This document shows positions 26,219 to 51,475 of a stretch of DNA of 51,475 nucleotides, in pieces (within the stretch, counting starts at the first letter, position 1; the number at the start of each line of letters is the position of its first letter). The position numbers and the translations under genes were made by a program. Origin of the DNA: Candidatus Zipacnadia bacterium (GTDB lineage Bacteria > Armatimonadota > Zipacnadia > Zipacnadales > UBA5352); the NCBI GenBank assembly GCA_029820295.1, contig JALGVA010000001.1, positions 1 through 51,475 of the forward strand. The letters run 5' to 3'. The notes beneath the pieces are model-generated. The model did not search any database. It was not told the DNA's origin and worked only from the letters and a program-made list of their open reading frames with translations.

Positions 26219-26356
26219 CGACGCATGATCACCCGGGCAGCCGGCTCCGCTCCGGCCCAGGCGCGTGACCGGCCGCACCGTCACGCAACCCGCAGGGCCG
26301 GACAGACTCGCAGGTCTGCCGCCCGTCTCTGAGACTCCGGCCGCCCCGGCCCGGCG

Positions 26357-28234: not shown

Positions 28235-28262
28235 GATCCTCTCCTCGCGCAGATGCCGTCGT

Positions 28263-29279: not shown

Positions 29280-29473
29280 GTGCACACCTCCGCACCTCCC
29301 CGGCCGCGGACGCGGCCGTCCGTCCGTGCTCCGCCGGGCGGCCATTTCCCTCCTGAACCCCCACGCCCCTGCAGTCGCGTGGACCCGCGCGCAGGTCCCG
29401 CGCGCCTGTGCGCGAATGTCATCCCGGAGAGCCGCCAGAGACGCAACCACGCACGAGGAGGCGCGGGAGCGCT

Positions 29474-30490: not shown

Positions 30491-30590
30491 CGCGTTCTGC
30501 CGGGGGGACGCCCCTGCGCGTGCGGCGATGCCCGAGCGCTACAGGAATCGCCCGCGGCGCGCGCGAACATATCGGAAGCGAGGTGAGGCC

Positions 30591-31421
30591 ATGCGTGGCC
30601 TGCTGGTCGTGGCGGTCTGTGTTGTGTGTGCGGCGGCGGTCGCTGAGCCGGTGCGCGTGCTGGAGGACGGCGGCGGCTTTGCCGTCGTGGGCACCGACGA
30701 GTTCTCGGTGCGCGTCGAAAGCTCGGGCGCGATCGGCCAGGTGATGGTCGGCGAGACCGAGTGGAGCTGGCTGATCCGCCTCTACACCTCGCCCATCAGT
30801 TTCGAGACGGGCGAGACCATCCGCGCGGTGCAGGGCGAGGGCGCGCGCGGGCTGGGGCCGGTGCCCGAGAGCATCCACCCGGAGCTGCGCGGCGAGGCCT
30901 GCTCCATCGTCATCGAGCGCGAGGCCGCGCGCGAGGAGATCCTGGGCGGCGCCCCCATGTACCACCTCACCCAGACCGTGACCGTGCACCCTACCGGCCG
31001 CATCGGCCTGCGCTACGAGTTCGAGTGGCTGCGCTTCCTGCAGATGCGCGGCGCGCAGGTCATCATCGCCCTGCGCGCCGCCCCCCTGGACGGCCGCCAG
31101 TGGTGGGCCGACTTCACCTCGCACGTGCTGCACGGAACCATCAGCGCCGAGCCGGACGCGAAGTCGCTCGACGAGGTCAGGGGCGCGCTGCGCAGCTTCA
31201 CCGTAGACTGCGGCGCCGCCGACCTGAGCCTGTGGATCGCCGAGAGCGGCCGTGTCACCGCCCGGCGGTGGAACCCGCAGGACTACGCGTTCTTCGTGTA
31301 CGTGCCGCATACCGGCTACGGGACGGAGGTCTACCCGGGCGTGCACTCGGTGGTGGACCTCGACCTTGTGCTGCCGATCCCTGAGATGCGCAGCATCTCC
31401 AGGAGGACTGAGCCGAGATGA
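30591..31421 (+). CDS. Exported protein of unknown function, coupled to the GH42-like gene
   Basis: A 276-residue protein with a signal peptide (MRGLLVVAVCVVCAAAVA). The mature part is rich in beta strands, with FAVVGTDEFSVRVESSGAIGQVMVGETEW near the N-terminus and MYHLTQTVTVHPTGRIGLRYEFEWL in the middle; this recalls the galactose-mutarotase-like beta-sandwich that also opens the next protein (NEFLRVRVRPTMGGRI). I do not recognise a named family. GAGGTGAGG precedes ATG 30591; earlier in-frame starts lack a signal peptide. Its stop overlaps the next start as ATGA, so the two proteins are probably made in fixed ratio and may act together on a glycan. Confidence 0.75.
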   Translation: MRGLLVVAVCVVCAAAVAEPVRVLEDGGGFAVVGTDEFSVRVESSGAIGQVMVGETEWSWLIRLYTSPISFETGETIRAVQGEGARGLGPVPESIHPELRGEACSIVIEREAAREEILGGAPMYHLTQTVTVHPTGRIGLRYEFEWLRFLQMRGAQVIIALRAAPLDGRQWWADFTSHVLHGTISAEPDAKSLDEVRGALRSFTVDCGAADLSLWIAESGRVTARRWNPQDYAFFVYVPHTGYGTEVYPGVHSVVDLDLVLPIPEMRSISRRTEPR

Positions 31422-34400
31422 AGCGCGCACTGCCCGTCGCCCTGCTGCTGATCGCCACCTGCCTGCCCGCGCTCGCGCAGTGTACGGTCGAGGAGACGAC
31501 CGTGATGGGCGAGCCCGCGATCGTGGTCGAGAACGAGTTCCTGCGCGTGCGAGTGCGGCCCACCATGGGCGGGCGCATTGACGAGTTCTACTACAAGCCT
31601 GCCGAGCGCCATCTCACCTCGCGCGAGGCCGGCGCCGTGCTGGTCGATCGCATCTGGAACTACGCGAATGCCGACGTCTATCGGCAGTGGATGGAGGCCG
31701 CGTACTCGGCGGTCATCGACGGTTCGCCCGAGCGCGTCGCGATCACGCTGACCGGTCCGGGGTTCATCGGGCCGGGCCGGTTCATGAGCTTCGAGAAGAC
31801 CTTCAGCATCGAGGCGGGGTCGAGCGCGATCCGCGCCGACTACCGCTTCTCGGTGGCGCAGGACGCCATGCGGGCGATGCGCGTGGGGCTGTGGTGGCAC
31901 AACCGCCTGGGCGTGCCGCAGGAGGCCAACACCTACTACATCCCGACGACGCAGGGCGTGCAGAGCGCGAGCTACGGCGCGGGCGGCGGCGGGGAGTACT
32001 GGTGGTACGACCCGGCCCGCGGCTGGGGTGCGGTGGTCGGGGAGTCGGGCGCGGGAGTCGCGGCGGTGACCGACCCGGGGCCGCTCATGCTGATCTACAA
32101 CTGGATGGGCGGCGACGTCGCCAGCCTCGAGTGGGCCTTCCGCAGCAGTGAGATCGCCAACGGCTCGTCGGTTGAGACCACGACGTGGCTGCTGCCCTTC
32201 GGCCGGATGGGCCGGGTCGCGGGGGCGAGCGCGCAGGTCGTGGTCGGCCTGGGCGACGCCCCGGAGCGCATGGACGCGCCCGGCACGCTGCCGCTGAGCG
32301 TGCAGCTTGCGGCGCCTGAGGCGCGTTCGGTGCAGGCGCGGCTGACTGCGCGGCGCCTGCCCGACGGTGAAGCGGCCGAGGTCGGGACCTGGAGCGCGGA
32401 CCTCACTCCCGGCGTCACCGCCACGCATGAGCTGTCGGTGGAACTGGCGCAGACGGGCACCTGGGAACTGGCGGGTGAGGTCACCGGCAACGGCGAGCGA
32501 CTGGCGGACTTCTTCCACACGGTGGTGGTTGGTGAGGCGAGCGGTCAGGTGGCCATCGAGCCGGATGTCGAGCGCGTCGGCCGGGTGGGCGAGCGCTTCG
32601 AGGACAAGATCGCGGCGCGCGGCACGGGCCCCGAGGACCGGCACCCGTCGGAGGAGGTGGTGACGCCGCACATCGCGTGGGCGCGGCCGCTGGCAGGCGG
32701 GCCGGTGCGCGCGCTGATCATCAACGACCTGCTGGTCGGGCGCGAGACGGTGGAGCTGGCGCAGCGGCTGGCGATGGACTACGACGCGCCCACCATCAGC
32801 ACCGGCTACGCCATCGGCGGCGCCACCACGGGCATGTTCGGCCAGGGCCTCGATGTCGAGTGGGCGCTGGACAACGTGCGCAGGCTGCTGGCGGACAATG
32901 ACTACGACGTGATCCTCATCGGCGGTATGACCTCGGAGCTGTATCCGGACGACGTGATCGCCGCGATCCTCGACCAGGTGCGCGGCGGCGCCGGGCTGGT
33001 GTGGGCCAACCCGAACCGCTGCAGCGAGGAGCTGTGGGCGGCGCTGCCGCTGGGCGAGATGGAGAGCCTCTCGCGCCCCACCGCCTCCTGGCAGGCGGTG
33101 GCCGAGCACTACCTGACCGCGGGCATCCCGTGGGATGCGCTGCCGCCGACCCAGGTCTCGCGCTACACCGACGCGGGTGAGGTGCTGGCGCGCGCGGAGC
33201 AGTACCCGCTCGTCGCGGTGGGCGAGCATGGCGCCGGGCGCGTGGTGGCGCTGGGCTATAACACCTCGTGGCAGGGCCCGGGCAGCTACTCCAACGGCCT
33301 GACACCGTGGATCCAGTTCGCGCCGACGCGCTTCGCCTACTGGGAGTACTACCACAGCCTGCTGGCCAAGTCGATGCTGTGGGCGGCCGGGCGCGAGCCC
33401 GACCCGCGCATCGTCGCCCTGTCCGTCGAGGGCGAGGCGCCCACGCTGCGTCTCAGCACCGCCAACGGCACGGGCGCGGCGACGCTCAGCGCCTGGGTAC
33501 GCGTGGTCAATGAATTCGGCGGCGTCGAGCAGACCATCCACCGCGACCTGGAGATCGCGGCGGGTCCGGGCGAGCAGACGGTGGCGCTGCCGGCGGATCT
33601 GCCCGGCGGCCTGCACCTGGTGGACGTGATCCTGCGCGATGCCGAAGGCGCGACCGTGGACTGGGGCAGCACCTCGTTCCGCATCACGCCGACGGTGGAG
33701 ATCACCGCGCTCCAGGCCGAGGACCGCATCTACCGCGAGGGCGAGCCCGTCGAGGCGCAGGTAACGCTCACGCCCGTCGAGCCCGCGCCGGCGGAGGTCG
33801 AGCTGCTGGCGAGCCTGCGCGACGCGCACGGGCGGCTGATCGCGCGCGCCGGCCAGGCGACCGAGCCGGCGGGCGATGCTACGCTCACGCTGGCCATGCC
33901 CGAGCCGCTGGCGACCACCGCGACCTTGCGCGTCGAGGTGCGCGACGGCGAGCGTCTGCTCGATACTGCGGAGCAGACGCTGCTGACCATGCCGCCGGCG
34001 TGGGATGAGCGCACGTGGGAGCCGTGGCTGGCGGCCATGTGGAGCAACCCGGCGGGGGCGTACTCGCGCGAGTACCTGGCGAAGTGGGCCTCCGAGCGGG
34101 TGCGCCGGCTGGGCATCGAGGCAGTGACCACCGGCTCGAACTGGCTGCACGACGGCGAGCAGCGCAACAACTTCATGCACGGCTTCCGGCTGCTGCCGCT
34201 GGGGATCATCGGCGATGTGCTGCACACCGACCGCGTGCGCGATGAGAGCCGCATGCGCTTCAGCGAGGCGCGCGAGCTGTACACGCAGACGGGCGACAAG
34301 CAGTACCTGCAGCGGCCGTACACGCTGCAGGCGGACGATACGCATCAGTTGGTTGCGGAGCGGGTGGAGCGAGTCACGGAGGCCACGGCGCGCTACCGAC

Positions 34401-36280
34401 CGGTGGGCTACTCGTGCGGCGACGAGCTGTCCGTGACCCACTACGTGACGCCCTTCGACTACGACTTCGGCCCGGTGGCGCTGGAGCACTTCCGGGCGTG
34501 GCTGCAGACCCGGTACGACACGCTCGCGGCGCTCAACGACGAGTGGGACACCGACTTCGCGACCTGGGACGACATCATGCCCATGACCGCCGAGGAGGTG
34601 CGCGGGCGCGGGAACTTCGCTCCGTGGGCCGACCACCGCAGCTTCATGGAGTTCAGCCTCGCCGAGTTCTTCGACTTCACCGACAACGAGCTGGAGGCGC
34701 ACGACCCGGGGGCGCGCATCGGCGTATCGGGCACGCAGGCCGCCGAGGCCTACGGGGGCTACGACTGGTGGCGGCTGACCGACGCGCTGGACTTCGCGCA
34801 GACCTACGACCACAAGAACACCGGCGAGATGCACCGCTCGTTCCACGACTTCCTGACCGCGCCCTGGTGGGGCTACGCGGGCACCGACCCGAGGCTGTCG
34901 CGGACGCTGTGGCGGCGACTGCTGAATGGCAACGATGGCGGCAGCTTCTACACCTACAACTACGTCTTCTGGCCCGACTACACCTGGACGCAAAGCACCT
35001 CCGACGCCATCCCGCACCTCGACGACATCCAGGGCGGGCTGGCGCGCCTGCTGCACGCCTGCGCCGAGCGCGAGACCGACGTGTGGGTGCACTACTCGCA
35101 GGCGAGCATTCACGGCGCGTGGATCACCGGCGGGCAGACGCTGATGAGCGACAATCGCGGGGGCTGGGTGCAGGCCATCGAGGACCTGGGGATGCAGGTC
35201 AGCTTCCTGGCCTACGCTCAGCTCGAGGACGGGCGGCTGACGGAGATGATGCCGCCGGTCTTCCTGCTGCCCTACTCAGTGGCGCTCTCCGACGCGGAGG
35301 TCGCGGAGATCGAGCGCTACGTGCGCGCGGGCGGGACGGTCATCGCCGACGCCCGCATCGGCCTGATGGACGAGCACTGCCGTACGCGCGCCACGGGGGC
35401 GCTGGACGAGCTGTTCGGCGTGCGTCGGCAGGAGGTCGATCCGGGCGCGGCGCGGCCGGAGGGCGTGGCGAGCTTCTCCCGCGCGCTCGATGACTGCGAC
35501 CCGACGGGCGTGAGCTTCGAGGGCTTCGGCGGCGAGGAGCTGACCCTCGACGGCGGGCAGGCGCTGGGCGAGATGGCCGGGCGGCCGGCGCTGATCGTCA
35601 ACCAGGTCGGGCAGGGCCGCGCGGCGCTGCTCAACCTGTTCGTGGACAGCTACAACCGGCGGCGCGGTCTGGGCGTGGGCGAGCCGATGCGCACGCTGGT
35701 GAGCGAGGTGCTCGAACTCGCGGGAGTGCGCGCGCCGATCGGTGTGCAGCTCACCGGCGAGCACTACGCATACACCGCCCGCTACCGCGACGGCGGCTCG
35801 CGCTTCGTGGGCGTGGTGCGGGACACCTCCGAGGGCCGCGCGGAGGCGACGCTGACGCTGCCCGAGCCGATGCAGGTCTACGATTCGCGCGAGGGGCGCG
35901 ACCTCGGCCACAGAGACAGCCTGACGCTGTCCATGGGGCCGGGCGAGTGCCGGATGCTGGCGCTGCTGCCCTACGAGGTCGAAGCCGTCAACGTACGGCC
36001 GCGCGAGGCGACCGTCCAGCAGGGCCGGCCGGTGGAGTACCTCGTCGGGGTGGAGGCGGGTGCGGATGCGGAGCCGGGCCTGCACGTCTACCGCATCGAG
36101 GTGACCGACCCGTCGGGCGAGGACTGCGCGTGGTACGGGACGCAGCTCACGGCCGCGCGCGGGGTCGTGTCCGGGCAGTTCACGCTCGCGCTCGATGACG
36201 AGCCGGGCGAGTGGACGATCCGCGCGACCGACGTGGCGACGGGCGTGAGCGGCGAGGGTACGGTCACCGTCACCCCGTGA
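31418..36280 (+). CDS. Giant exported multidomain GH42-like beta-galactosidase family protein
   Basis: A 1,620-residue protein with a signal peptide (LPVALLLIATCLPALAQ). Residues about 25-300 form a mutarotase-like beta-sandwich (VVENEFLRVRVRPTMGG). Around 430-620 is a ThuA/glutamine-amidotransferase-like module (YDVILIGGMTSELYPDDVI, then GAGRVVALGYN). Ig-like strands run to about 855. A TIM barrel of about 860-1200 carries the GH42 hallmarks: YSCGDELSVTHYVTP near 997, with acid residues in the place of the acid/base pair, and FRAWLQTRYDTLAALNDEWDT near 1025. A second GATase-like region follows at about 1215-1420, as in GH42 trimerisation domains, then C-terminal Ig-like domains. It should cut beta-linked glycans outside the cytoplasm. 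GH42 proteins are usually 650-900 residues, so this one is very long. Confidence 0.85.
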   Translation: MKRALPVALLLIATCLPALAQCTVEETTVMGEPAIVVENEFLRVRVRPTMGGRIDEFYYKPAERHLTSREAGAVLVDRIWNYANADVYRQWMEAAYSAVIDGSPERVAITLTGPGFIGPGRFMSFEKTFSIEAGSSAIRADYRFSVAQDAMRAMRVGLWWHNRLGVPQEANTYYIPTTQGVQSASYGAGGGGEYWWYDPARGWGAVVGESGAGVAAVTDPGPLMLIYNWMGGDVASLEWAFRSSEIANGSSVETTTWLLPFGRMGRVAGASAQVVVGLGDAPERMDAPGTLPLSVQLAAPEARSVQARLTARRLPDGEAAEVGTWSADLTPGVTATHELSVELAQTGTWELAGEVTGNGERLADFFHTVVVGEASGQVAIEPDVERVGRVGERFEDKIAARGTGPEDRHPSEEVVTPHIAWARPLAGGPVRALIINDLLVGRETVELAQRLAMDYDAPTISTGYAIGGATTGMFGQGLDVEWALDNVRRLLADNDYDVILIGGMTSELYPDDVIAAILDQVRGGAGLVWANPNRCSEELWAALPLGEMESLSRPTASWQAVAEHYLTAGIPWDALPPTQVSRYTDAGEVLARAEQYPLVAVGEHGAGRVVALGYNTSWQGPGSYSNGLTPWIQFAPTRFAYWEYYHSLLAKSMLWAAGREPDPRIVALSVEGEAPTLRLSTANGTGAATLSAWVRVVNEFGGVEQTIHRDLEIAAGPGEQTVALPADLPGGLHLVDVILRDAEGATVDWGSTSFRITPTVEITALQAEDRIYREGEPVEAQVTLTPVEPAPAEVELLASLRDAHGRLIARAGQATEPAGDATLTLAMPEPLATTATLRVEVRDGERLLDTAEQTLLTMPPAWDERTWEPWLAAMWSNPAGAYSREYLAKWASERVRRLGIEAVTTGSNWLHDGEQRNNFMHGFRLLPLGIIGDVLHTDRVRDESRMRFSEARELYTQTGDKQYLQRPYTLQADDTHQLVAERVERVTEATARYRPVGYSCGDELSVTHYVTPFDYDFGPVALEHFRAWLQTRYDTLAALNDEWDTDFATWDDIMPMTAEEVRGRGNFAPWADHRSFMEFSLAEFFDFTDNELEAHDPGARIGVSGTQAAEAYGGYDWWRLTDALDFAQTYDHKNTGEMHRSFHDFLTAPWWGYAGTDPRLSRTLWRRLLNGNDGGSFYTYNYVFWPDYTWTQSTSDAIPHLDDIQGGLARLLHACAERETDVWVHYSQASIHGAWITGGQTLMSDNRGGWVQAIEDLGMQVSFLAYAQLEDGRLTEMMPPVFLLPYSVALSDAEVAEIERYVRAGGTVIADARIGLMDEHCRTRATGALDELFGVRRQEVDPGAARPEGVASFSRALDDCDPTGVSFEGFGGEELTLDGGQALGEMAGRPALIVNQVGQGRAALLNLFVDSYNRRRGLGVGEPMRTLVSEVLELAGVRAPIGVQLTGEHYAYTARYRDGGSRFVGVVRDTSEGRAEATLTLPEPMQVYDSREGRDLGHRDSLTLSMGPGECRMLALLPYEVEAVNVRPREATVQQGRPVEYLVGVEAGADAEPGLHVYRIEVTDPSGEDCAWYGTQLTAARGVVSGQFTLALDDEPGEWTIRATDVATGVSGEGTVTVTP

Positions 36281-40196: not shown

Positions 40197-42446
40197 TCAG
40201 GAGCGCGCTCGCAGGGCCGCGGGAACGAGCAGCGCCAGCGCCGCGACCGCCAGGACGGCCAGGGCGCCGGCGGTGACGTCAAGGCCGGTGAGGGGCACGA
40301 GCACAATGCTGACCGCCGCCGCCCCGAGCGCCCCGCCGACCAGGTCGAGCGCATAGAGCCGCGCGCCCGCGCGCGATTGGGCTCCCCCCGAGAGCGCGAC
40401 CCCGGCCGGGAAGGCCGCGCCGGTGAGCAGGCTGGCGAGCAGCGCCGCGCCGCCCAGCAGCGCGGTCGCGAACGGGGGTGCCGCCGCGGCCGCGCGCATC
40501 AGCCATGGCATCCCCGCGCACACCAGCGCGAAGAGAGCGCAGATGCCCGCCAGGATCGCCCCGCTGCGCCGCCCCGGCAGGCGCCCGGCCAGCCACGCGC
40601 CCACGGCCAGGCCGAGCATGTTCAGCGTCATCAGCAGGCCGATCTGGTGGTACAGATAGCCCGCGATCGTCTGGAAGGCGAAGAGGACCGCGAGCTGGAC
40701 GCCCATCTCGAGCAGGCCGATGAGCGCGATGGCCAGCCCCGTCGCGACGGGCGCGAAGCCCCGGCGCCGCCCGGCGACGAGCGCGGCGATGAGCGCCAGC
40801 GCTACCGCGATCCACGTCGCCTGCCGCACCGAGCGCGCGGTGACGGCATCCAGCCAGCCGAGTTCCTCCCGCGGCGCGAACTGCCGCCACCACAGGCGCA
40901 TCTGCAGGTGATAGGCGATCGGACGGAAGTCGGTGTTCTCCGGCGCGTCCGCCGCCGCGCCCTCGACGGCCTCGCCGGCGATCGCCAGCGCCAGCGGGTT
41001 CAGTTCGGCCTCGAGCGTGTAGGGCGTCACGAAGAGCGTGTCGAGATCGCGCTCGCCCAGCCGGGGTGGCAGACCGGCGACATCGACCGGCGGCCCGAGC
41101 GTCGCCAGGAACTGCAGACTCTCCTGCACCGGGAGCACAGCCTGGGAGGGCAGCGCTCGGGAGAGCGCGCGCCAGACGCCGCCCACGAGCAGGCGGCGCT
41201 CGCCGGTGAGCGTGGCACGCGGGGAACTCAGGCCCGTCAGCAGCACGCCGCCGGGACGCAGCGCGCGGGCGGCCTCGGTGAAGAAGCCGCGTGTGTAGTA
41301 GCGGTTGATCACGGCGGTCGTGGGGTCGGGCAGATCGGTGACGATGACATCCCAGGCCCGGCGCGACGCTTTCACGAGCGCACGGCCGTCGGTGAAGCGC
41401 AGGTGCACGCGCGGGTCGCGCAGCGGCCGGGCCAGCTCCTCGGGCACGTGCCGCGCGATGAAGCGGATGCCCTCGCGATCGAGTTCGGCGTAGTCGAGGC
41501 GCTCGACGGGATGCTTGAGGGCCTCGCGGATCGCGGGCGGGCCGCCGCCGATGAGCAGCATCCGCCGCGGCTCCGGGTGTGCGGCCAGACCGATGTGCAC
41601 GATCTCCGCGCCGGGCTCAGGGCTGTCGGTGAAGAGCGGGACGCCGTCATGCGCGCAGGCGAGCTGGCCGGCGGCACGGCCGATGGTCCACAGGCCGTAG
41701 CGGGTATTCGTCCAGGCGACCACGTCCCGGCGGGAGCGGACGCGGATCAGCGCGCCGTCGACCCGATGCGCCAGCCCGGGCCAGCCCACCGGCACGAGGA
41801 AGATGGCCCCCAGGGCGCACGCGGCGGCCGGCGTGACCCGCGAGCGTCCGCCGGCGCTGAGCCAGGCGGCGAGCGCGCAGTTGCCCGCCACCAGCGCCGC
41901 GACCGCCACCACGGAGCTGAGGTGGTCGGCGATGACGAAGTGGAAGAGCACTCCGGAGGCGACCGCGCCGGTGGCCTCCAGGACGTAGACGCGCCCGGCC
42001 GCGCGCGGGGCGGCGCGCTCGAGGAGCTTGCAGCCCAGCGCGAACTGCGCACCCAGCACGAGGCACGCCGGCGCCAGCGACGCCGCGGTGAGCACCAGGG
42101 CGGTCGTTGGCGAGGCGATTTCGCCGGGGAAGTCGCCCTGCTCGCCCGCCAGCCGCGCCAGCACCAGCCCGCCCGCCATGAGCGGCGCCAGCGCCAGCTC
42201 GGTGCCGGCGAGCGTGGCGACCGTGACGCGTCGGTCCGGCAGCCGCGCGCCGGCGGCGCTGCCGGCGGCGACCAGCAGCAGCCACGCCAGCAGGATGATG
42301 CCGATGATCAGCTCGTTGCCGACGAAGGAGACGATCAGCTCGCGGGTGAGGATGACCTGGTAGAGCAGTGCGGTGAAGCCGACGCCGACCAGCGCGGCCA
42401 CCAGGGGGAGCGCCGCGCACCGGCCCGGTGCGTCAGGACCAGACAC
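40197..42446 (-). CDS. Membrane protein with central spermidine-synthase-like domain
   Basis: About 749 residues. An N-terminal bundle of about seven helices (starting LVAALVGVGFTALLYQVIL) leads to a SpeE-like Rossmann domain at roughly 280-500, then a second bundle of about seven helices to the end, the layout of fused membrane spermidine synthases. In the SAM-binding loop GGGPPAIREALKHP replaces the usual GGGDG, so the Asp of true aminopropyltransferases is absent; DYAELDREG and VTDLPDPTT keep the other acidic positions. Polyamine synthesis is therefore doubtful and another transferase is possible. The GTG at 42446 overlaps the stop of the radical SAM gene by 14 bases; a second GTG at about 42410 is an alternative. 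The coupling suggests joint function with the AmmeMemoRadiSam genes. Confidence 0.82.
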   Translation of the reverse strand: MSGPDAPGRCAALPLVAALVGVGFTALLYQVILTRELIVSFVGNELIIGIILLAWLLLVAAGSAAGARLPDRRVTVATLAGTELALAPLMAGGLVLARLAGEQGDFPGEIASPTTALVLTAASLAPACLVLGAQFALGCKLLERAAPRAAGRVYVLEATGAVASGVLFHFVIADHLSSVVAVAALVAGNCALAAWLSAGGRSRVTPAAACALGAIFLVPVGWPGLAHRVDGALIRVRSRRDVVAWTNTRYGLWTIGRAAGQLACAHDGVPLFTDSPEPGAEIVHIGLAAHPEPRRMLLIGGGPPAIREALKHPVERLDYAELDREGIRFIARHVPEELARPLRDPRVHLRFTDGRALVKASRRAWDVIVTDLPDPTTAVINRYYTRGFFTEAARALRPGGVLLTGLSSPRATLTGERRLLVGGVWRALSRALPSQAVLPVQESLQFLATLGPPVDVAGLPPRLGERDLDTLFVTPYTLEAELNPLALAIAGEAVEGAAADAPENTDFRPIAYHLQMRLWWRQFAPREELGWLDAVTARSVRQATWIAVALALIAALVAGRRRGFAPVATGLAIALIGLLEMGVQLAVLFAFQTIAGYLYHQIGLLMTLNMLGLAVGAWLAGRLPGRRSGAILAGICALFALVCAGMPWLMRAAAAAPPFATALLGGAALLASLLTGAAFPAGVALSGGAQSRAGARLYALDLVGGALGAAAVSIVLVPLTGLDVTAGALAVLAVAALALLVPAALRARS

Positions 42447-43584
42447 CGGGGATCGCCCGACCGCACAACGCGCAGGTGCCGTCCGCGTTGATCCTGCGTT
42501 CGAGGATCTGATAGCCGCGGCGCCTGATGACCGCCGCGCCGCAGCCCGCGCAGAAGGTGTTCTCCCCGGGGTGCCCGGGCACGTTGCCGACGTAGACGTA
42601 GTGCAGGCCCTGGTCCAGGGCCGCGCGCCGACACGCCTCAAGCGTCTCCACAGGCGTCGGCGGCAGCCGGGTGAGCTTGTAGGCGGGATGGAAGCGGGTG
42701 AAGTGCAGGGGAACATCCGGGCCCACCGCGCGCACCAGCCAGCCGGCCATGTCGCGGATGCCGTCGAGGCCGTCGTTCACCGTGGGCACCACCAGGTAGA
42801 CGATCTCCAGCCACTTGCCCAGCGCGCTCACCCGGCGGATGCTTTCCTTCACGGGCTCGATGGTGCCCGCGCAGTAGTCGCGGTAGAAGTCGTCGGTGAA
42901 GCCCTTCAGGTCGATCTTGATCGCGTCCAGGTGTGGGGCCAGGTCGAGCATCGGCCGGCGGTTGAGGTAGCCGTTGGAGATCATCACCGCGCGCAGGTCG
43001 GCCGCCTGCGCCAGTTCCGACGTGTCGCGCATGAACTCGTAGAACACGCTGGGCTCGTTATAAGTGAAGGCAACGATCTCCGCGCCGTACTCCCCGGCCT
43101 TCTCGACGGCGGTCGCGGGGGGCAGGTCAATGCGCCGGTCGATCTGCTCGGGCAGCACCTGGGAGATCTCCCAGTTCTGGCAGTCCTTGCACTCCATGTT
43201 GCAGCCGACCGTGCCGATGGAGAAGGCGCGGCTGCCGGGCAGGAAATGGAAGAGCGGCTTCTTCTCGACCGGGTCGAGGTTGACCGTCGAGGCCCAGCCG
43301 TGCACCAGCGAGTAGTAGGTGCCCCCGCGGTTCTCGCGCACGCCGCAGTAGCCGCGGCCGCCATCGCGTACCGTGCAGGTCCGCGGGCACAGGCCGCAGC
43401 GCACCACATTGCCGGCCAGCTTCTCGTAGTACATCGCCTCGCGCAGGCCCCCGGATGCGCCGGCGGCATCGCCCGGACAGCCCGTCAGGCCGACCGCCGC
43501 CGCGCCGCCCAGCGCCAGCCCGCTGCACAGCATCAGCCGGAGCATCTCGCGGCGGTCCATGGCGCCGTCACCCGGTCCGCTCAT
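42433..43584 (-). CDS. amrS: AmmeMemoRadiSam system radical SAM enzyme with Tat/lipoprotein-type signal
   Basis: About 383 residues. The radical SAM motif is Cys128, Cys132 and Cys135 (GCNMECKDC). Before it is a further Cys group (CGLCPRTC at 63-70 and Cys80), and the C-terminus holds a zinc-ribbon-like pair, FCAGCG and CALCG, both typical of this family. FTYNEPSVFYEFM and KIDLKGFTDDFY match the family core. The N-terminus MDRREMLRLMLCSG and hydrophobic stretch to LTGC at 33-36 resemble a twin-arginine signal with a lipobox, which is unusual for a radical SAM enzyme. ATG 43584 is favoured by GGAGGG and lies two bases after the MEMO-AMMECR1 stop; ATG 43560 is an alternative that keeps the signal. 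The reaction is unknown. Confidence 0.93.
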   Translation of the reverse strand: MSGPGDGAMDRREMLRLMLCSGLALGGAAAVGLTGCPGDAAGASGGLREAMYYEKLAGNVVRCGLCPRTCTVRDGGRGYCGVRENRGGTYYSLVHGWASTVNLDPVEKKPLFHFLPGSRAFSIGTVGCNMECKDCQNWEISQVLPEQIDRRIDLPPATAVEKAGEYGAEIVAFTYNEPSVFYEFMRDTSELAQAADLRAVMISNGYLNRRPMLDLAPHLDAIKIDLKGFTDDFYRDYCAGTIEPVKESIRRVSALGKWLEIVYLVVPTVNDGLDGIRDMAGWLVRAVGPDVPLHFTRFHPAYKLTRLPPTPVETLEACRRAALDQGLHYVYVGNVPGHPGENTFCAGCGAAVIRRRGYQILERRINADGTCALCGRAIPGVWS

Positions 43585-43585
43585 C

Positions 43586-45181
43586 TCACTGTCCCTCCCC
43601 CTTGGTGGCACCGCCCTCGTCCTCGGCGAAGACCTGCGCCGTGAAGACATACAGTCGCGCGCCCGTGCGCCACGCGTCCGCCGGCAGCCCGGCCTTGTGC
43701 GCGCACAGCTCCGTCAGCATGGTCTCGCGGTCCCAGCCCTGTTCGGTGGCGACCTGCGGCAGGAAGACGCCGCTGCGCCCGTCCTGCTCAACCAGAACGC
43801 CGTGGGTGCCGCAGATGATCTCCTCGGGGTCGGCGACCTCGCGCATGGGGGAGAGCACGCTGATCTCGATGTGCAGATCGGCGACCTCGCTCGCCTGCAC
43901 CGGCAGGAACCGTGGATCACGCGTCGCGGCCGAGGCCGCCGCCGATACGACCGCCTCACCCAGCGGCTGGGTCGCCTCCAGCGTGCCGATGCAGCCGCGC
44001 AGCATGCCTTCTTTGTGCAGCGTCACGAAGCAGGCGCGCCGCTGCGCGAAGGCCGGGTCATCGGTGGGCGGATCGGGAGGCGCCGTGCCCGCAGTGATCG
44101 CGGTGATGGTCTCACGCGCCAGCGCGAGCAGGAGCGCCTGCTGCTGCGCGTCGAGTTGGCCCGCTTCCTCGGCCGGCTCGGCGTCCTCCCTCGCGGGTGG
44201 CGACGGCTCGGGTGCGCAGAACACGACCGCGCCGTAGCCGACGCACCGCGTCGCGTCACCGCCGGGCACGTCGCCGGAATTGGCGTAGTCGATGACCACG
44301 GCGGAGTCCGCACCAAGCTCGCGTGCCGTGCGCATGACCGTCAGCACGGGGCCGAGCCCGCACAGCGTGCACGCCAGGTTCGCGACCCCCTCGCCCATCA
44401 GCTCGGCGTCGGCGGTGCGCACCGTGTCCGGGTCGAACTGCGCGATGGCGTCGAGCATCGCCCGGTCCACGCGCCGCGCATCCGCCTGGGCCGGGTAGTG
44501 CGACATGTCCGAGCTGGCCACCAGCAGCGCCGAGCGCCCGGCGAGGGCGGCGGTGATCGCCTGCGCGACCTCCTCGCACTCGCCATCGGACAGGTCGTGC
44601 ATCAACAGCGGGACGATGCTGAAGTCGTCGAGCATGACCTGCAGGAAGGGAAGCTGGACCTCCAGCGAGTGCTCGTTGCGGTGCGCGTAGGCGGCGGGCG
44701 CGAACAGGTCGGAGGCCTGCTGCAGTGCGGCGCAGATCTCGCCATCGACGGGCACCTCACCCAGCGGCGTGCGCCAGCGCGCGGCCGCCGGCAGTGCGAC
44801 GCCCACGACCGGCGCGCGATGCGCGGGGCCGATGACCACGACGGTGTCGATGGCCGTATCGCGCAGTTGCGCGTAGGCCGCGGCGGCGATGGCGCCCGAG
44901 TAGACGTAGCCGGCGTGAGGGGCGATGATCGCGATGGGGCGGCCGGGCAGGTCGGCGGGCTCAGCCGCGGCGAGGGCGTCGGTGACGAACGAGCGCAGCT
45001 CATCGGCGTCGCCGGGATAGAAGGCGCCCGCCACCGCCGGCTCCCGCACGGTCTCGTCGGCCGCGCAGGCGGCCGGCGAGTCGGGCGAGGCCGGCGCGGA
45101 GGTGCGTTGACCGGGGCAGCCCGCGATCAGGGCGCCGCAGGTGAGCGCGACGGCAAATCCAACGGCACGGAAGCTCCACAC
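43586..45181 (-). CDS. amrB-amrA: MEMO1-AMMECR1 fusion protein with lipoprotein signal
   Basis: A 531-residue protein. It begins with a lipoprotein signal (lipobox IAGC, Cys22). Residues about 45-315 are a MEMO domain: AGAFYPGDADEL, IAPHAGYVYSG, VIGPAHRAP, NEHSLEVQLPF, SSDMSHYP and CTLCGLGP. The His and Cys positions that bind metal in human MEMO1 appear kept. Residues about 345-515 are an AMMECR1 domain with the hallmark LRGCIGTLE. In many genomes these are separate proteins encoded with a radical SAM enzyme; here two are fused and the third follows two bases later. The start is GTG 45181, with GGAGG nine bases upstream and a promoter at 45202-45230. The lipobox implies location outside the cytoplasm. 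The molecular role is unknown. Confidence 0.93.
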   Translation of the reverse strand: MWSFRAVGFAVALTCGALIAGCPGQRTSAPASPDSPAACAADETVREPAVAGAFYPGDADELRSFVTDALAAAEPADLPGRPIAIIAPHAGYVYSGAIAAAAYAQLRDTAIDTVVVIGPAHRAPVVGVALPAAARWRTPLGEVPVDGEICAALQQASDLFAPAAYAHRNEHSLEVQLPFLQVMLDDFSIVPLLMHDLSDGECEEVAQAITAALAGRSALLVASSDMSHYPAQADARRVDRAMLDAIAQFDPDTVRTADAELMGEGVANLACTLCGLGPVLTVMRTARELGADSAVVIDYANSGDVPGGDATRCVGYGAVVFCAPEPSPPAREDAEPAEEAGQLDAQQQALLLALARETITAITAGTAPPDPPTDDPAFAQRRACFVTLHKEGMLRGCIGTLEATQPLGEAVVSAAASAATRDPRFLPVQASEVADLHIEISVLSPMREVADPEEIICGTHGVLVEQDGRSGVFLPQVATEQGWDRETMLTELCAHKAGLPADAWRTGARLYVFTAQVFAEDEGGATKGEGQ

Positions 45182-45299: not shown

Positions 45300-46181
45300 C
45301 TACTCGGGTGCGGCCGGCGGCTCCTGCTCGCCGCCTTCCTCCCGGGCGTTCCGGGCGGCGGCGATGATACCGCACCTGATGCCCGCGAACCACTCCACCG
45401 CGAACTTCTTGCCCGGCTCGACGCCGGCCGCGGCGGCATCGGACGGGTAGACGTGCACCAGCTCCTTGCCGTTGGCGAGGATGCTCCACCCCTCCCCGGC
45501 GTCGGCCACGGTCAGTTGCCGGGGATGCACCGGCTCGCCGGCCCACTCCTGGATCGCATCCCGCGTCGCCTCGGCGCGTTCCAGGGGCGTCTGTCCGCCG
45601 CCGGGCTCAGTGATCGTGATGGCGATCTGACCGTTCATGAGCACATCCACGCCCTCGTCCGTCTCGCGGACGGTGGCCTCCATGTCGATGGGCGCGGGCG
45701 CGAGGGCCGTGCGCGCCTCGTCCTCACTGAGGATCTCCGCCTCCCCGGAAGCAATGGCGGCGAAAGCCTCGCGCAGATCGTCGTGGGTCCAGCCGAAGCC
45801 GACGGGGAAATAGAAGGTCACCACGCGCGACTCCTCGTCCTCGCCGGGGATGCGCACCACCGGGCTGCCATCGAAGAGCAGCGCCATGCACTGCACGCCC
45901 TCCCGGGCCATCCGTTTCGCGCCCTCGGGCGTGCCGAAGTCGATGATCTCCACGTCGATGGCGTCATACTGCTCATCCAGCTCCTTAAGCAGCGCGACCG
46001 TCCAGTCCTGACAGCCGGACGCGACGTTGATGTAGGCGGTCAGGTGCACCGTCTCATCCACTACCGGCTGCAGGGCGTCCGCCGGCGGTTCGAGGGGGGG
46101 CTGCGTCGGGCGTTCCTGGCAGCCTGCCAGCACGATGAGGACGGATGCGACCGTGAGCAGGCTGGCGCGCAGTGTGATCAT
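45300..46181 (-). CDS. Lipoprotein with thioredoxin-like N-terminal domain
   Basis: A 293-residue predicted lipoprotein (lipobox LAGC, Cys21). Residues 45-110 look thioredoxin-like: VHLTAYINVASGCQDWTVALLKEL, then IDVEIIDFGTPEGAKRMAREGVQCMALLFDG. In place of a C-x2-C pair there is a single Cys57 (GCQDWT); a second Cys98 lies in the following strand region. The rest, with an acidic-to-polar segment and NGKELVHVYPSDAAAAGVEPG, is not recognised. A role in handling metals, thiols or electrons at the envelope is inference. AGGAGG precedes ATG 46181, which overlaps the stop of the ABC ATPase gene as ATGA, so it is translationally coupled to the transporter. The MEMO-AMMECR1 gene follows after 118 bases. 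Confidence 0.75.
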   Translation of the reverse strand: MITLRASLLTVASVLIVLAGCQERPTQPPLEPPADALQPVVDETVHLTAYINVASGCQDWTVALLKELDEQYDAIDVEIIDFGTPEGAKRMAREGVQCMALLFDGSPVVRIPGEDEESRVVTFYFPVGFGWTHDDLREAFAAIASGEAEILSEDEARTALAPAPIDMEATVRETDEGVDVLMNGQIAITITEPGGGQTPLERAEATRDAIQEWAGEPVHPRQLTVADAGEGWSILANGKELVHVYPSDAAAAGVEPGKKFAVEWFAGIRCGIIAAARNAREEGGEQEPPAAPE

Positions 46182-46912
46182 CTCTGAGTGCCTCCTGTGT
46201 CACCGTGTTCTGGACGCGGCTCCGCGGTCCGGCCCCCATCGCCGACCAGCGTCCCCTCCCGCAGGTGCAGCACGCGCCGCGTGCCGGCGATGGTACGTCG
46301 GTCATGGCTGGCGATGATGACGGTCCGTCCCTGCCGGTTCAGTCGTTCCAGCAGGGCCAGGATGCGTCCGGCGTTCTCGGCGTCGAGTTCCCCGGTGGGC
46401 TCGTCGGCGAGGATGAGCCGCGGGTCATTGACCATCGCGCGGGCCACCGCCGCCCGCTGCTGCTCGCCGCCGGACAGCTCCCCGGGCAGGTGTGACGCCC
46501 GGTGCTCGATGTTCGCCTCTGCCAGGGCGTCTTCGACGCGCCGTAGCTTGTCCGCCTCGGCGTCCGGCAGTGGGACCAGCGGGAGCATGACGTTCTCGAG
46601 CACCGTCAGAGCCGGCACCAGGCTTGCGTTCTGGAAGACGAACCCGACCGTCTGGCGCCGATAGACCGCCAGTGCGTCCTCGTCGAGGGCGCCCAGATCG
46701 GTGCCGCCCACGACCACGCTGCCGCCGCTCGGGCGGTCGAGCCCGCCGATCAGGTTCAGCAGCGTTGACTTGCCGGCGCCGGAGTGGCCGGTCACGCCCA
46801 CGAACTCGCCTTCCCCGATCGACAGCGAGACGTCCCTCAGGGCCGCGAGCTGTGAGTGCGCTCGCTGGTAGATCCTGGTGACCGCGCGCAGGCTGATGTA
46901 CTCTCGGGGCAT
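46178..46912 (-). CDS. ABC transporter ATP-binding protein, MacB/LolD type
   Basis: A 244-residue ATPase with Walker A GHSGAGKST near residue 42, Q-loop VFQNASLVP, signature LSGGEQQR near 144, Walker B LILADEPTGELD and the switch His in IIASHD. The sequence type (RAVTRIYQ start, TVLENVMLPL) is that of MacB/LolD/FtsE-like ATPases that pair with FtsX-type permeases, which act as mechanical pumps for lipoproteins, peptides or signals rather than as importers. The permease is encoded just upstream (57-base gap) and the thioredoxin-like lipoprotein overlaps its end. No strong ribosome binding site is seen before ATG 46912; a GGAGG lies 17-21 bases upstream. Confidence 0.94.
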   Translation of the reverse strand: MPREYISLRAVTRIYQRAHSQLAALRDVSLSIGEGEFVGVTGHSGAGKSTLLNLIGGLDRPSGGSVVVGGTDLGALDEDALAVYRRQTVGFVFQNASLVPALTVLENVMLPLVPLPDAEADKLRRVEDALAEANIEHRASHLPGELSGGEQQRAAVARAMVNDPRLILADEPTGELDAENAGRILALLERLNRQGRTVIIASHDRRTIAGTRRVLHLREGTLVGDGGRTAEPRPEHGDTGGTQR

Positions 46913-46969: not shown

Positions 46970-48373
46970 TCATATCCGCCTGAGCGCCTCCGTCGGGGCG
47001 AGACGTGCGGCGCGGCGCGCGGCCGCCAGCCCGGCCACGGTGCCGATGACCAGCGCCGCCGCCACCCCCAGGATGAAGACGGTCGGAGACGGGGTGGTGG
47101 ACAGCGGCAGGCCCAGCGGCGCCTCGGTGGTTGAGCACGGCGGGAAGTAGTTGAGGCTGGCAGGCAGCTCCAGGTCGGCGAAGCGCCCCCAGGTCCACCC
47201 GACCACGCCGCCCAGGACACTGCCCAGCAGGCCGCCGATGAGCGCCGCGCACGCCGCCTCGGCGGCGAACAGCCGCCCCACCTCGCTGTTGCTCCAGCCG
47301 ATCGCCTTCATCACCCCGACCTCGTTCACCCGCTGCGCCACGCCGTCGATGGCGTTGCGCGCCAGCGCCAGCATGGCGAAGAGCAGCACGAACGCCGAGA
47401 CGGCCAGGAGGGTGTTGCGCGTCACCGCGGCCAGGGCGGCCGTGCCCGCCTCGACGTTGGTCTCGGTCGTGATGCTCGCGCCCTCGCCGATGAGTTCCCG
47501 GATGTACTGCTCGACCGCCGCGCTCGCGCGCCTGGAGGTCAGAGAGACGAAAATCGTGTCCACGACTTCGCCCTCCCCGAACATCTCCTGAGCGCTCGCC
47601 AGCGGGATGAACGCCTCGGCCCCGGCGATGCGCGCCGTCCCGCTGATGTCCACCAGCCCCACGACCTCGAACTCGTGGTGCGGTCCCAGCGGCAGGAGAT
47701 CGCCGACCTCGATGCCTCTTGCCTGCGCGTACTGGACGGTGATCAGGGCGTGGTAGTCATCATCCGCGGACAGATAGCGGCCCTCGGTCACCGCGCAGCA
47801 CTTCTCGGGGCCATCCGCCCCGCCCTCCCGCCTGGCCAGCCGCACCGGGCCGATGGTGCGCCGCGACGGGTCGATCCCGGCCACCACGGTGGGCTGCAGA
47901 CTCTTCATCTCGCCGCCCTCGCCCATGACCATCGGCACGCCCTGCCCACCCGCCATGGGCCCGCTCTCGGCCGCGTCGTCGGCCGCGTCGGATCGCTTGT
48001 CGCCGGTGAAGGGCAGGTCCAGCCCGCCACCGCCTCCGGTGTCGGCGAAGTGGAAGGCCCACAGCTCCAGGACGCCCGACGCCTGCGCCACGCCCTCGTG
48101 CTGCTCCAGACGCTCGACCACGGCCATGTCGATGGTGGCCAGGTCCTTGGGGAGCTTGACCAGCCGGAAGGGGCAGGCGTCCACGCGCTTCTGCACCACG
48201 ATGTCGGCGCCGGCGGCATCCAGCGCCGAGGCGATGGCGTTCTCCACCGACTGCGTGACGGTGAGCACCGCCACCAGCAGGGCCACGCTCAACGTCACGC
48301 CCGCGACCACCATGGTGCTGCGTGTGCGCCGACGCCAGAAGCTCTTCCACGCGTACCGAAAAAGCATGCCCAT
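46970..48373 (-). CDS. ABC transporter permease, FtsX/MacB family
   Basis: A 467-residue permease with the MacB-type layout: one N-terminal helix (STMVVAGVTLSVALLVAVLTV, about 19-40), a large extracytoplasmic domain to about 310 and three C-terminal helices (TLLAVSAFVLLFAMLALA, ACAALIGGLLGSVLGGVVGW, VFILGVAAALVIGTVAGLAAA). The FtsX signature is seen in RVNEVGVMKAIGWSNSEV and the final ARLAPTEALRRI. The external domain carries a Cys in VDACPFRLVKLP and a Cys pair in EKCCAV, unusual for the family and of interest next to redox proteins. Start could be 48373 or 48367 (second Met); neither has a strong ribosome binding site. It is divergent from the binding-protein gene across 284 bases. Confidence 0.92.
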   Translation of the reverse strand: MGMLFRYAWKSFWRRRTRSTMVVAGVTLSVALLVAVLTVTQSVENAIASALDAAGADIVVQKRVDACPFRLVKLPKDLATIDMAVVERLEQHEGVAQASGVLELWAFHFADTGGGGGLDLPFTGDKRSDAADDAAESGPMAGGQGVPMVMGEGGEMKSLQPTVVAGIDPSRRTIGPVRLARREGGADGPEKCCAVTEGRYLSADDDYHALITVQYAQARGIEVGDLLPLGPHHEFEVVGLVDISGTARIAGAEAFIPLASAQEMFGEGEVVDTIFVSLTSRRASAAVEQYIRELIGEGASITTETNVEAGTAALAAVTRNTLLAVSAFVLLFAMLALARNAIDGVAQRVNEVGVMKAIGWSNSEVGRLFAAEAACAALIGGLLGSVLGGVVGWTWGRFADLELPASLNYFPPCSTTEAPLGLPLSTTPSPTVFILGVAAALVIGTVAGLAAARRAARLAPTEALRRI

Positions 48374-48657
48374 CCACGGCCTGCAGGGCCGGAACGTCCA
48401 CCCGGCCGGTGATATCGCCTCGCCCCGCCGGACGCATGCCTGAGGGGAGGCTGATCGGACGACACTGCATCCGTGCAGCGATGTTTCATCCAGCGGCCTT
48501 CCGGCACCTCCGACTCGCGGGCAAGTACCGGGCGCCCGGGCACGCGCATGGCAGCGATGACCGGGCCGCGCCGCCGGGACATGGAGGATGCTGCCTCATC
48601 CGCCGCGAAGCGGCCCGCACGCGGATACGCAACGAGACCGGTGCAGGAGACGCGACG

Positions 48658-50829
48658 ATGAGCCGCCGCGCGCTCTCGTGGATTGACGCAGGCATCATCC
48701 TGGCGACGGCTGCGGTCACGGGCGCACTCTATGTGTCATACGCCCGGCCGGGTACACCCACGCTCGTGGTGTGGTCGTGCGGCGGGAACTACCACAGCCT
48801 CGACGCGTTCTCCAGGCGCTTCGAGCGCGCGCATGACTGTCGGGTGCGCTACACCGCCGCGCCGGTGCAGTACCTCCTCGAGGAGGTGGCCTTCGGCGGC
48901 GGGAAGCCCGACGTCCTCGTGGGCCGAGCCGGTCCCGGGTGGCAGGCCCTGCGGAAGCTGGGCAAGCTCGCCGAAGGTCCCGACTTCTTCGCCGCCGACC
49001 CCTACGTCATCATCACCCCCGCGGGCAATCCGGCAGGGATTACCGGCCTTCGCGACTTGGGTGAGCCCGGAGTGCGCGTGGCCTTCTCCCCCCGCGCCAT
49101 GCGTCCGAAGGGCAAGTGCCCCGCGCATCTGATGGCGATGGTGGCGTCCAGGTTCTTCCCCGGCCTCGACGAGCGCTGGGAGAACAACGCCGTCGTGGCC
49201 GATGACTGCGGGCGCGGGCTGCCCTCGGCGATCATGCGCGGTGAGGCCGACGCCGCCATCGTCGCCCGGTCGATGCTCGCCTACCCCGGCCTTGACCCCG
49301 ACGCCCTCGAGGTCGTGCCCATCGCGGTCGAACACCTTGACGCGATGAAGGTCTGCCGGGCCACCATCGGCCAGTGCGTGGGCGTGCTGAGCGGGGCCGC
49401 GCAACCCGAACTCGCCCGCCGCTATCGCGCGGAGATGCTGGGCGAGCCGGGGCGGGAGGTCTTCGAGCAGTTCGGCTACATCCACATCTCGTCGCCTGAA
49501 GTGCACCTCTACGACGCCTTCCTGCAGGTGTTCACCCCCACGCGCTCGCCGCCGTGGCAGGTGCATCTGGCCGACCGGCTCGCCGAGGAGGGCCTGGTGC
49601 GCGAAGCCGTGCGCCGCTACCTGAAGGTCATCCACACCTTCGGCCCCAACGAGTTCGAGGCGCTGTGCCGGTACCGCGCCGGTGAGCTGCTGGCCGCGCA
49701 GGGCAGGCCCGCGGCCGCCGCGCAGCAGTGGCGGCGGCTGATCCGCGACTACCCGCGCCGCGGGCCGAACGAGTGGGGCAGCCCGGTCTTCGCGCTGCTC
49801 TCCACCGGGCCGGACCTCGATCTGCAGCCGGATGAGGAGTACGTGCGGCTGGCGAGGCAGGCGCTGAGGCGGCTTCCCCCGGCGGACCGCCGGCGCCGGG
49901 GCGCGGCCGAGGAGCCGGTCATAGCGGCCACGCGCATCTCGGCGCCGCGCGTGATCGACGGCGACCCGCCCAAGAACGGAACCCGGGAGCTGGCCTTGGC
50001 CGAGGACCTGTTTTCGGTCGGCGAGTACGACTACGCGACGCGGGACTACCTGAAGGTCCTGCATCTGTGCTACCCCAGCCGCCACCGCCCGGAGGCGAGC
50101 CTGCGGCTCGGCGCCTGCGCGCATCTGCGCGGAAGGCCGGACCTGGCGCGGCGGCAGTGGGAGTGGACGGTGGAGCAGTTCCCGGGCACCGATGCCGCGC
50201 GCCGGGCCGCGGCGGCGCTGAAGCTGCTCGGCGCCGACGAGCCGCGCCGGGCAGAGACGCGCTGTCCGGTCGCGATGCCGCCGTGGACGCCGGCATACGA
50301 CACATGGGCCGAGCGCGGCATGAGCTACGGGATGGCGCTCTACGAGCACGACCTGCCGCTGTTTGCGTTCAAGGAGATGATGAAGCTGCTGCACGGGGTC
50401 TACCGGCGCCACCGGTTCGGCCCGCAGGCGCGCTATCGGGCCGGGATCGCGGCGTGGGAGGCCGGACACCCCGGTGCCGGGGTCCTGCAGTGGCGCATCT
50501 GTGCGCACCGGCACGCCGAGAGCCCGTGGGGTGAACGCAGCCGCCGGGCCATCGAGGCGGTGATGCGGTCGCCGGACCTGACCGAAGCCCAGCGGGCGCA
50601 GGTGGAGGCGGCCGCCGCCGGGCCGTTGCCCGCGATCCCCGCGCGCGACAGCCCGGGCTGCTGGCAGCGCTGCAGCCTGGCACAGGAGTTCCTGATCGCG
50701 GGCATCCTCGACGAGGGGCAGGCGGCGATGGAGTTCCTGAAGGCCCTCACCGTCACGCGCGCCTCCGGGGGCAAGTACGACGACAGCGTGGTCCCGGTGG
50801 CCGAGGAAGGGCTGAGGCGAGCGCTATGA
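48658..50829 (+). CDS. Membrane-anchored ModA-like binding protein fused to TPR-like repeats
   Basis: A 723-residue protein. Residues 9-26 are a membrane anchor or uncleaved signal. Residues about 33-270 resemble the periplasmic molybdate/tungstate-binding ModA family: TLVVWSCGGNYHSLDAF, PDVLVGRAGPGW, VIITPAGNPAGITGLRDLGEPGVRVAF, GEADAAIVARSM and ARRYRAEMLG. The domain is Cys-rich, with Cys in WSCGG, AHDC, GKCPAH, DDCGRG, KVCRAT and GQCVG, which ordinary ModA lacks. From about 285 to the end there are TPR-like helical pairs (EEGLVREAVRRYLKVIHTF, DYATRDYLKVLHL, FAFKEMMKLLHGVYRRH). AGGAG precedes ATG 48658. Its stop overlaps the polyferredoxin start as ATGA. It may deliver a ligand or sense it for the neighbouring transporter and redox proteins. 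Confidence 0.83.
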   Translation: MSRRALSWIDAGIILATAAVTGALYVSYARPGTPTLVVWSCGGNYHSLDAFSRRFERAHDCRVRYTAAPVQYLLEEVAFGGGKPDVLVGRAGPGWQALRKLGKLAEGPDFFAADPYVIITPAGNPAGITGLRDLGEPGVRVAFSPRAMRPKGKCPAHLMAMVASRFFPGLDERWENNAVVADDCGRGLPSAIMRGEADAAIVARSMLAYPGLDPDALEVVPIAVEHLDAMKVCRATIGQCVGVLSGAAQPELARRYRAEMLGEPGREVFEQFGYIHISSPEVHLYDAFLQVFTPTRSPPWQVHLADRLAEEGLVREAVRRYLKVIHTFGPNEFEALCRYRAGELLAAQGRPAAAAQQWRRLIRDYPRRGPNEWGSPVFALLSTGPDLDLQPDEEYVRLARQALRRLPPADRRRRGAAEEPVIAATRISAPRVIDGDPPKNGTRELALAEDLFSVGEYDYATRDYLKVLHLCYPSRHRPEASLRLGACAHLRGRPDLARRQWEWTVEQFPGTDAARRAAAALKLLGADEPRRAETRCPVAMPPWTPAYDTWAERGMSYGMALYEHDLPLFAFKEMMKLLHGVYRRHRFGPQARYRAGIAAWEAGHPGAGVLQWRICAHRHAESPWGERSRRAIEAVMRSPDLTEAQRAQVEAAAAGPLPAIPARDSPGCWQRCSLAQEFLIAGILDEGQAAMEFLKALTVTRASGGKYDDSVVPVAEEGLRRAL

Positions 50830-51475
50830 CTGTGAAGCGGATCACCATCTACCGGCGTCTGAGCCAGGCGGCGTTCTTCGGAGTCACCGCCGCCTGGCTG
50901 ACCATCGGCTCGCTGCGCTGCCCCTTCGGCGTCCCGTTCGTGTCCTGCCAGTCCTGCCCCTCGACCGACTGCCCCGGACGTTCCCTGCAGCTTCCCTTCA
51001 TCGGGCTGGCGGCGCTCTCGGGCGCGCTCTTCGGCCGGGCGTTCTGCGGATGGGCCTGCCCGGTCGGCTTCATCATGGACGTCGCGGGCAAGCTGCCGAA
51101 GCTCAGGGCCACGATCTCGGCGCGGTTCACCGCCATCGACCGCTGGCTCAAGCCCCTGAAGTGGCCGGCGCTGGCGGCGGCGATCTACCTCGTCTTCGCG
51201 CTGAACTTCACCGAGGCGCGGGCCTTCCCCTACGTGGTGCGCACCTCGTCGGCCTTCAACATCGGGGCCGTCCGGCTCGCACAGGCGCTGGGCGATCCGG
51301 CGCAGACGGTGCGACTGGGGGTGGTGATCGGAGCGCTGGCGGCCGGCCTCATCGTCTCCCGCGCCTGGTGCCGCTATCTGTGCCCGCTCGGCGCAGTGCT
51401 GGGCCTCCTCAACAAGTGCAGCCTCTTCGCCATCCGGCGGGACCGCGAGGATCTGCCGCGCTGCGAGACTCTCCC
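50826..51475 (+). CDS. NapH/CcoG-like polyferredoxin membrane protein (partial, runs off the right edge)
   Basis: The first 216 residues are present. Hydrophobic segments at about 13-34, 58-82, 116-134 and 160-182 alternate with the family's two C-x3-C-P motifs, FCGWACPVGF and WCRYLCPLGAV, and an N-terminal periplasmic-type Cys group, CPFGVPFVSCQSCPSTDCPG. In NapH, NosR and CcoG these precede one or two ferredoxin clusters, which would lie beyond the window; a Cys near the end (RCETL) may begin the first. Such proteins move electrons between quinol and periplasmic partners. The start ATG overlaps the stop of the ModA-like gene (ATGA), so expression is coupled. Confidence 0.9.
   Translation, partial: MTVKRITIYRRLSQAAFFGVTAAWLTIGSLRCPFGVPFVSCQSCPSTDCPGRSLQLPFIGLAALSGALFGRAFCGWACPVGFIMDVAGKLPKLRATISARFTAIDRWLKPLKWPALAAAIYLVFALNFTEARAFPYVVRTSSAFNIGAVRLAQALGDPAQTVRLGVVIGALAAGLIVSRAWCRYLCPLGAVLGLLNKCSLFAIRRDREDLPRCETL

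Follow-up and report, generated by a model that had tools for sequence, protein, structure and literature searches.

The stretch of DNA analysed here, 51,475 nucleotides of contig JALGVA010000001.1 from the Candidatus Zipacnadia bacterium assembly GCA_029820295.1 (hereafter the window), carries at 42433..43584 on the minus strand the gene for a radical S-adenosylmethionine (SAM) enzyme of 383 amino acids that is predicted to leave the cytoplasm. Comparison with homologues supports this export well, and we consider it very probable. The enzyme is probably the radical SAM subunit of an AmmeMemoRadiSam system located outside the cytoplasm, with SAM-dependent catalysis taking place there. Export signals on both enzyme and partner, the catalytic motifs and the link to a neighbouring membrane protein were found conserved by comparison of sequences. 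The further proposal of a complete extracytoplasmic radical SAM pathway across many phyla, with SAM or a derivative present outside and handled by a membrane protein with an outward spermidine-synthase-like domain, is a tentative one.

The radical SAM identity given in the initial annotation was confirmed by a match to the AmmeMemoRadiSam family TIGR04337 (344 bits against a cut-off of 220, model positions 2-333 of 349) and by the Radical_SAM domain PF04055 (65 bits against 29.5), and CxxxCxxC is present. The reading frame runs from an ATG at 43584, a single nucleotide past the stop of the upstream gene, to a stop codon at 42433-42435. The N-terminus reads MSGPGDGAM-D-R-R-E-M-L-R-LMLCSGLALGGAAAVG-LTGC, and the description in the initial annotation of D-R-R-E-M-L-R, a hydrophobic stretch and LTGC proved accurate when the sequence was read directly. 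In full the N-terminus is MSGPGDGAMDRREMLRLMLCSGLALGGAAAVGLTGC, and the signal within it (43477..43584, minus strand) has the twin arginine at residues 11-12 (nucleotides 43549-43554). In DRREMLR the F and K of the twin-arginine translocation (Tat) consensus are M and R, the hydrophobic region follows, and TatC is present in the window's own genome, while the LTGC after the signal agrees with the lipobox pattern [LVI][ASTVI][GAS]C and ends in Cys36. Residues 1-50 were modelled by AlphaFold2 with low confidence and residues 51-383 as a confident fold (mean predicted local distance difference test, pLDDT, 91.8), which is consistent with a detachable leader. Signals were called throughout by motif and hydropathy rules plus reading of the sequences.

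The search for TIGR04337 homologues covered 60 relatives and 200 genomes of the phylum, to which 80 named loci spanning many phyla were added. A FastTree tree of 169 cores resolved two clades, one of 128 sequences including the window protein and one of 41, and the same split was recovered with a support of 94 by IQ-TREE on 96 of these cores. The strict motif [STNDG]RRx[FLMI] was found in 92/128 members of the window protein's clade versus 0/41 in the sister clade, and the relaxed RRx(hydrophobic) in 110/128 (18.7 expected from shuffles) versus 5/41 (4.8 expected). Tat signals, and sometimes Sec-type signals, occur almost throughout the clade of 128, whereas the sister clade has none. This conservation, in the motif counts and in the exported clade as compared with its sister, shows that the leader is not a product of chance. 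The signal is conserved in kind within the subfamily, and the combination that the initial annotation had named as counter-evidence, homologues lacking a signal together with a downstream start, holds for a separate signal-less clade only.

Of the 18 members of the larger clade that lack the relaxed motif, most carry a leader that is Sec-type, has KR or RK, or exceeds the scanned stretch; in a few the contig end truncates the gene or no signal is visible, among them L077, in which a core cysteine is also lost. Named members of this clade cover about 20 named or candidate phyla, e.g. Acidobacteriota, Planctomycetota, Omnitrophota, Zixiibacteriota and Myxococcota, with the reservation that the phylum labels of single metagenome bins may be misassigned. 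The 13 changes of signal state counted on the FastTree tree are inflated, because the first signal classifier overlooked Tat-like leaders that were recovered by reading (e.g. L053, L100, L104, L122, L138, L142 and L206), and the single change on the IQ-TREE subset arises by construction, since its rows were labelled by clade.

It is extremely improbable that translation instead begins downstream of the signal, for instance at the ATG of MYYEKL, to yield a cytosolic enzyme whose leader is little used. The signal-less homologues do begin near the position of this ATG, but a strong ribosome-binding-like stretch, the Shine-Dalgarno-like GGGGGAGGG read at 43593..43601 on the minus strand, lies right before the ATG at 43584, 8 nucleotides ahead of it, and leaders conserved in kind over many phyla are hard to square with a segment of little use.

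The partner of the enzyme carries an export signal of its own. Directly upstream, at 43586..45181 on the minus strand, lies a fusion of Memo (TIGR04336) and AMMECR1 (TIGR04335) homologues, both families above their cut-offs, and this adjacency to a radical SAM gene is that of an AmmeMemoRadiSam system. The fusion has its own lipoprotein-like signal, VWSFRAVGFAVALTCGALIAGC. A hydrophobic signal was present in 50/51 of the Memo-AMMECR1 fusions scored, with a lipobox in 13 of the 50, and the single fusion scored signal-less (L204) has a hydrophobic leader broken by an arginine. Stand-alone Memos had no signal in 11/14 cases in a 20-genome survey with counts made from N-termini, and in the genomes of the three that are signalled (L230, L231 and L232) the stretch retrieved around the exported radical SAM gene contains no Memo gene. 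A second Memo of the window genome, encoded elsewhere, has 283 amino acids and no signal, and fusions encoded apart from a radical SAM gene do not all carry a signal (L224, L241). Neighbouring genes were counted at 121 exported-clade and 35 signal-less-clade loci. As these loci are mutually related, the events compared in the Fisher tests are not independent. Memo genes were found at 56/121 versus 1/35. The metal site of human MEMO1 consists of H49, H81 and C244 (eLife 86354). The two histidine ligands align with the window fusion, and Cys274 of the fusion, invariant among fusions, may correspond to C244.

The type of leader was compared with the export machinery by searching for TatC in 22 genomes, of which L190 was set aside for its unclassifiable N-terminus. 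TatC went undetected in 6/9 genomes with a Sec-type leader versus 0/12 with a Tat-type leader (Fisher p = 0.0015), two of the 12 Tat-type leaders having RK in place of RR (L198, L203). Whereas these RK leaders were classed Tat-type, L185 and L204, in which a very hydrophobic stretch follows RR or KR, were classed Sec-type. By hand calculation, a strict motif rule gives 6/11 versus 0/10 genomes without TatC (p about 0.009), and a shift of L185 and L204 to the Tat group gives 4/7 versus 2/14 (p about 0.06). The leader type appears to match the export machinery that a genome has, as would be expected if export itself were under selection. Tat export of a folded, cofactor-loaded enzyme, which the initial annotation had put forward as mechanistically possible, gains support from the clade-wide signal, from the way leader type tracks TatC and from the separate export signal of the operon partner.

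These observations also bear on the alternative, raised in the initial annotation, that the helix anchors the enzyme at the inner face of the membrane and leaves the active site in the cytoplasm. A hydrophobic segment is by itself no proof of translocation, and other radical SAM enzymes are cytoplasmic. The positive charges, however, lie ahead of the helix, which would place the N-terminus inside and the enzyme outside, and the twin arginine recurs together with AxA-type, cleavage-like sites or lipoboxes in many homologues. With the partner predicted to be exported and the leader type tracking TatC, we regard anchoring at the inner face as very unlikely.

In the exported and the signal-less clade alike, the radical SAM cysteines do not vary. 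The motifs aligned with GGE and D-L-K of the pyruvate formate-lyase activating enzyme (PFL-AE), which contact SAM in that enzyme, are likewise invariant or nearly so in both. This alignment needed a profile built from 50 sequences, a single-sequence search of the PDB with the radical SAM protein having given no match. PFL-AE (3cb8) was the top PDB match of the AlphaFold2 model in Foldseek, and the cut-offs of glycyl-radical-enzyme activases were not reached (32 bits versus 231.75 for TIGR02493 and 29.2 versus 174.35 for TIGR02494). The window enzyme shares with PFL-AE the CxxxCxxC, the GGE equivalent and D-L-K, and differs from it in the export signal and in additional conserved cysteines flanking the core at both ends. 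Between Tat leader and catalytic core, two homologues, L202 (Calditrichota) and L205 (KSB1), have a CxxCH, the usual haem-c attachment site. Two more radical SAM paralogues are encoded in the window genome, L053 with a Tat leader and L054 without.

The additional cysteines, invariant at both ends of the core, the CxxCH insertion in two homologues and Fe-S electron-transfer genes at some loci could also fit an exported protein that no longer uses SAM and serves as an extracytoplasmic iron-sulphur (Fe-S) electron carrier or scaffold for Memo-AMMECR1. Such a role would remove the problem of SAM outside the cell, but it is unlikely given that the SAM-contact motifs are equally conserved in the exported and cytosolic clades and align with PFL-AE. 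One may also speculate that the enzyme is exported with SAM pre-bound, or is an activase used a single time, so that no free SAM is required outside. Tat moves folded, cofactor-loaded proteins, and the characterised relatives nearest to the enzyme, by sequence as by fold, are glycyl-radical-enzyme activases, whose targets of modification are proteins. Against this, co-exported SAM has no direct evidence, the separately signalled partner implies that the target is met outside, and use for one turnover would be costly; we find this route distinctly unlikely. SAM-dependent catalysis outside the cytoplasm is the explanation we favour over these.

A candidate for the handling of SAM adjoins the enzyme on its other side. 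The gene at 40197..42446 on the minus strand begins with a GTG that overlaps the radical SAM gene at its end, and its product is a membrane protein of 14 helices whose central spermidine-synthase-like (SpeE-like) domain is recognised by Pfam Spermine_synth. Hydropathy and AlphaFold2 (pLDDT 90.3) give the same layout, in which a domain of about 300 residues separates two groups of seven helices. Lysine plus arginine stands at 19.1 in even loops versus 4.2 in odd ones, an excess that places the domain outside in the predicted topology. In fold the central domain matches aminopropyltransferases (Foldseek; 1uir), while the protein does not reach the cut-off of the spermidine synthase family TIGR00417 (80.7 versus 249.55 bits). 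A relative from another locus exceeds the cut-off of the fused MFS/spermidine synthase family NF037959. As compared with that family and with 1uir, the window domain is set between two seven-helix sets and predicted to lie outside, and conservation does not extend to the aspartate of GGGDG. The SpeE-like gene was found at 50/121 exported-clade loci versus 0/35 signal-less-clade loci (p = 2e-7).

According to the favoured explanation, the enzyme would fold and acquire its Fe-S cluster(s) in the cytoplasm and be exported in folded form by Tat, with a lipid anchor at Cys36 in the window organism, and the Memo-AMMECR1 fusion would be exported on its own, as a lipoprotein. On the outer side, the 5'-deoxyadenosyl radical would arise at a PFL-activase-like [4Fe-4S]/SAM centre. 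This radical, the Memo metal site and AMMECR1 may then act in one pathway, most likely on an envelope substrate, e.g. a lipid or lipoprotein. Electrons might be delivered by membrane-bound or exported Fe-S carriers (NapH/NapG-like proteins, a ferredoxin lipoprotein) where these are present, and the supply or handling of SAM could be aided by the neighbouring 14-helix protein with its outward domain. In this scheme the SAM outside, the electron route, the substrate and the reaction are what we infer only.

Several points weigh against this explanation. To our knowledge SAM is not known to occur outside the cytoplasm, and homologues with Sec-type leaders are hard to reconcile with the export of a cluster-loaded enzyme. 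The Tat model TIGR01409 gave no listed match to the window radical SAM protein at E values up to 1. Among possible electron donors, NapH-like genes are few (11/121 versus 0/35 by phmmer), their enrichment not being significant alone (p = 0.13), and ferredoxin motifs occur at few loci with no significant enrichment overall (p = 0.25). Reading of the sequences decided some of the leader classes used in the TatC comparison. Genomes and loci are nearly all metagenome-assembled, those of the TatC test being mostly so and small, and a missing TatC may be an assembly gap. All the evidence is computational.

Further neighbours recur with the exported enzyme. DUF362 genes were found at 50/121 exported-clade loci versus 2/35 signal-less-clade loci, and NapGH-like genes at 13/121 versus 0/35. 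RRx(hydrophobic) lies within the first 60 residues in 51 of 63 DUF362 genes. In the window, a NapH-like membrane ferredoxin (Pfam Fer4_5) that is a possible electron donor is encoded at 50826..51475 on the plus strand and extends beyond the window end. Its counterpart in L249 (2827-3648, 273 amino acids) lies on the opposite strand beyond the operon, as in the window. In a related genome, a small ferredoxin-like protein with a lipobox (L251, 2391-2738, minus strand) is encoded divergently from the Memo-AMMECR1 gene. A link to the DUF362 gene of the window at 1080-2177 was rejected; it lies 40 kb away and encodes ferredoxin motifs and no Tat signal. This gene adjoins an aldo/keto reductase gene at 83-1027 with a Tat-like N-terminus, MERREFIARL.

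Upstream of the fusion and on the same minus strand lie genes whose membership in the system is uncertain: a lipobox protein (LIVLAGC) matching no Pfam or NCBIfam family (45300..46181), a LolD/FtsE/MacB-type ABC ATPase whose gene overlaps the former (46178..46912), and an FtsX/MacB-type permease (46970..48373), with which the run probably begins. Apart from a few ABC ATPase matches that look unrelated, these do not recur at the other loci compared, and they were therefore left out of the system. Elsewhere in the window, 48322-50829 encodes an SBP_bac_11 domain followed by a weak TPR match, its true start probably downstream of the first start codon, and 20931-36280 holds carbohydrate-related genes with secretion-like N-termini, among them a heparinase II/III-like gene (20931-23090) and a 1620-residue protein with beta-galactosidase-like domains (31418-36280). 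Just past the window, the corresponding stretch in L249 (4318-6868) has three genes with near-identical prepilin-like leaders.

We rate the exported form as a variant of the known AmmeMemoRadiSam system, not a new kind. The signal-less system has the same three families (TIGR04337, TIGR04336 and TIGR04335), encoded by neighbouring genes, and the same catalytic motifs; here, by contrast, enzyme and fusion carry export signals, and recurrent neighbours include the SpeE-like membrane protein and DUF362. Both partner domains align with structures, of human MEMO1 (7kq8), whose ligands H49 and H81 are conserved, and of the AMMECR1 family (1zq7, 1vaj). We know of no fusion between the proteins of these structures and of no export signal on them. 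Burroughs and co-workers are said to have tied Memo, in 2019, to nucleotide-base and isoprenoid modification. A passage of later work by the Burroughs group mentions Memo-Ammecr1 systems. Five open-access papers name AmmeMemoRadiSam, each of them a single time. No paper on an exported or periplasmic radical SAM enzyme was found in the open-access literature, subscription papers not being covered.

Because their chemistry requires SAM together with an Fe-S cluster in a strongly reduced state, radical SAM enzymes are regarded as intracellular. If a conserved branch of the family is indeed exported, and its partner along with it, SAM and a suitable supply of electrons would have to be available beyond the cytoplasm, and bacteria may run radical SAM chemistry there. 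Such a branch would also open a new approach to Memo and AMMECR1. Their human relatives, whose biochemical function is not settled, have been linked to disease.

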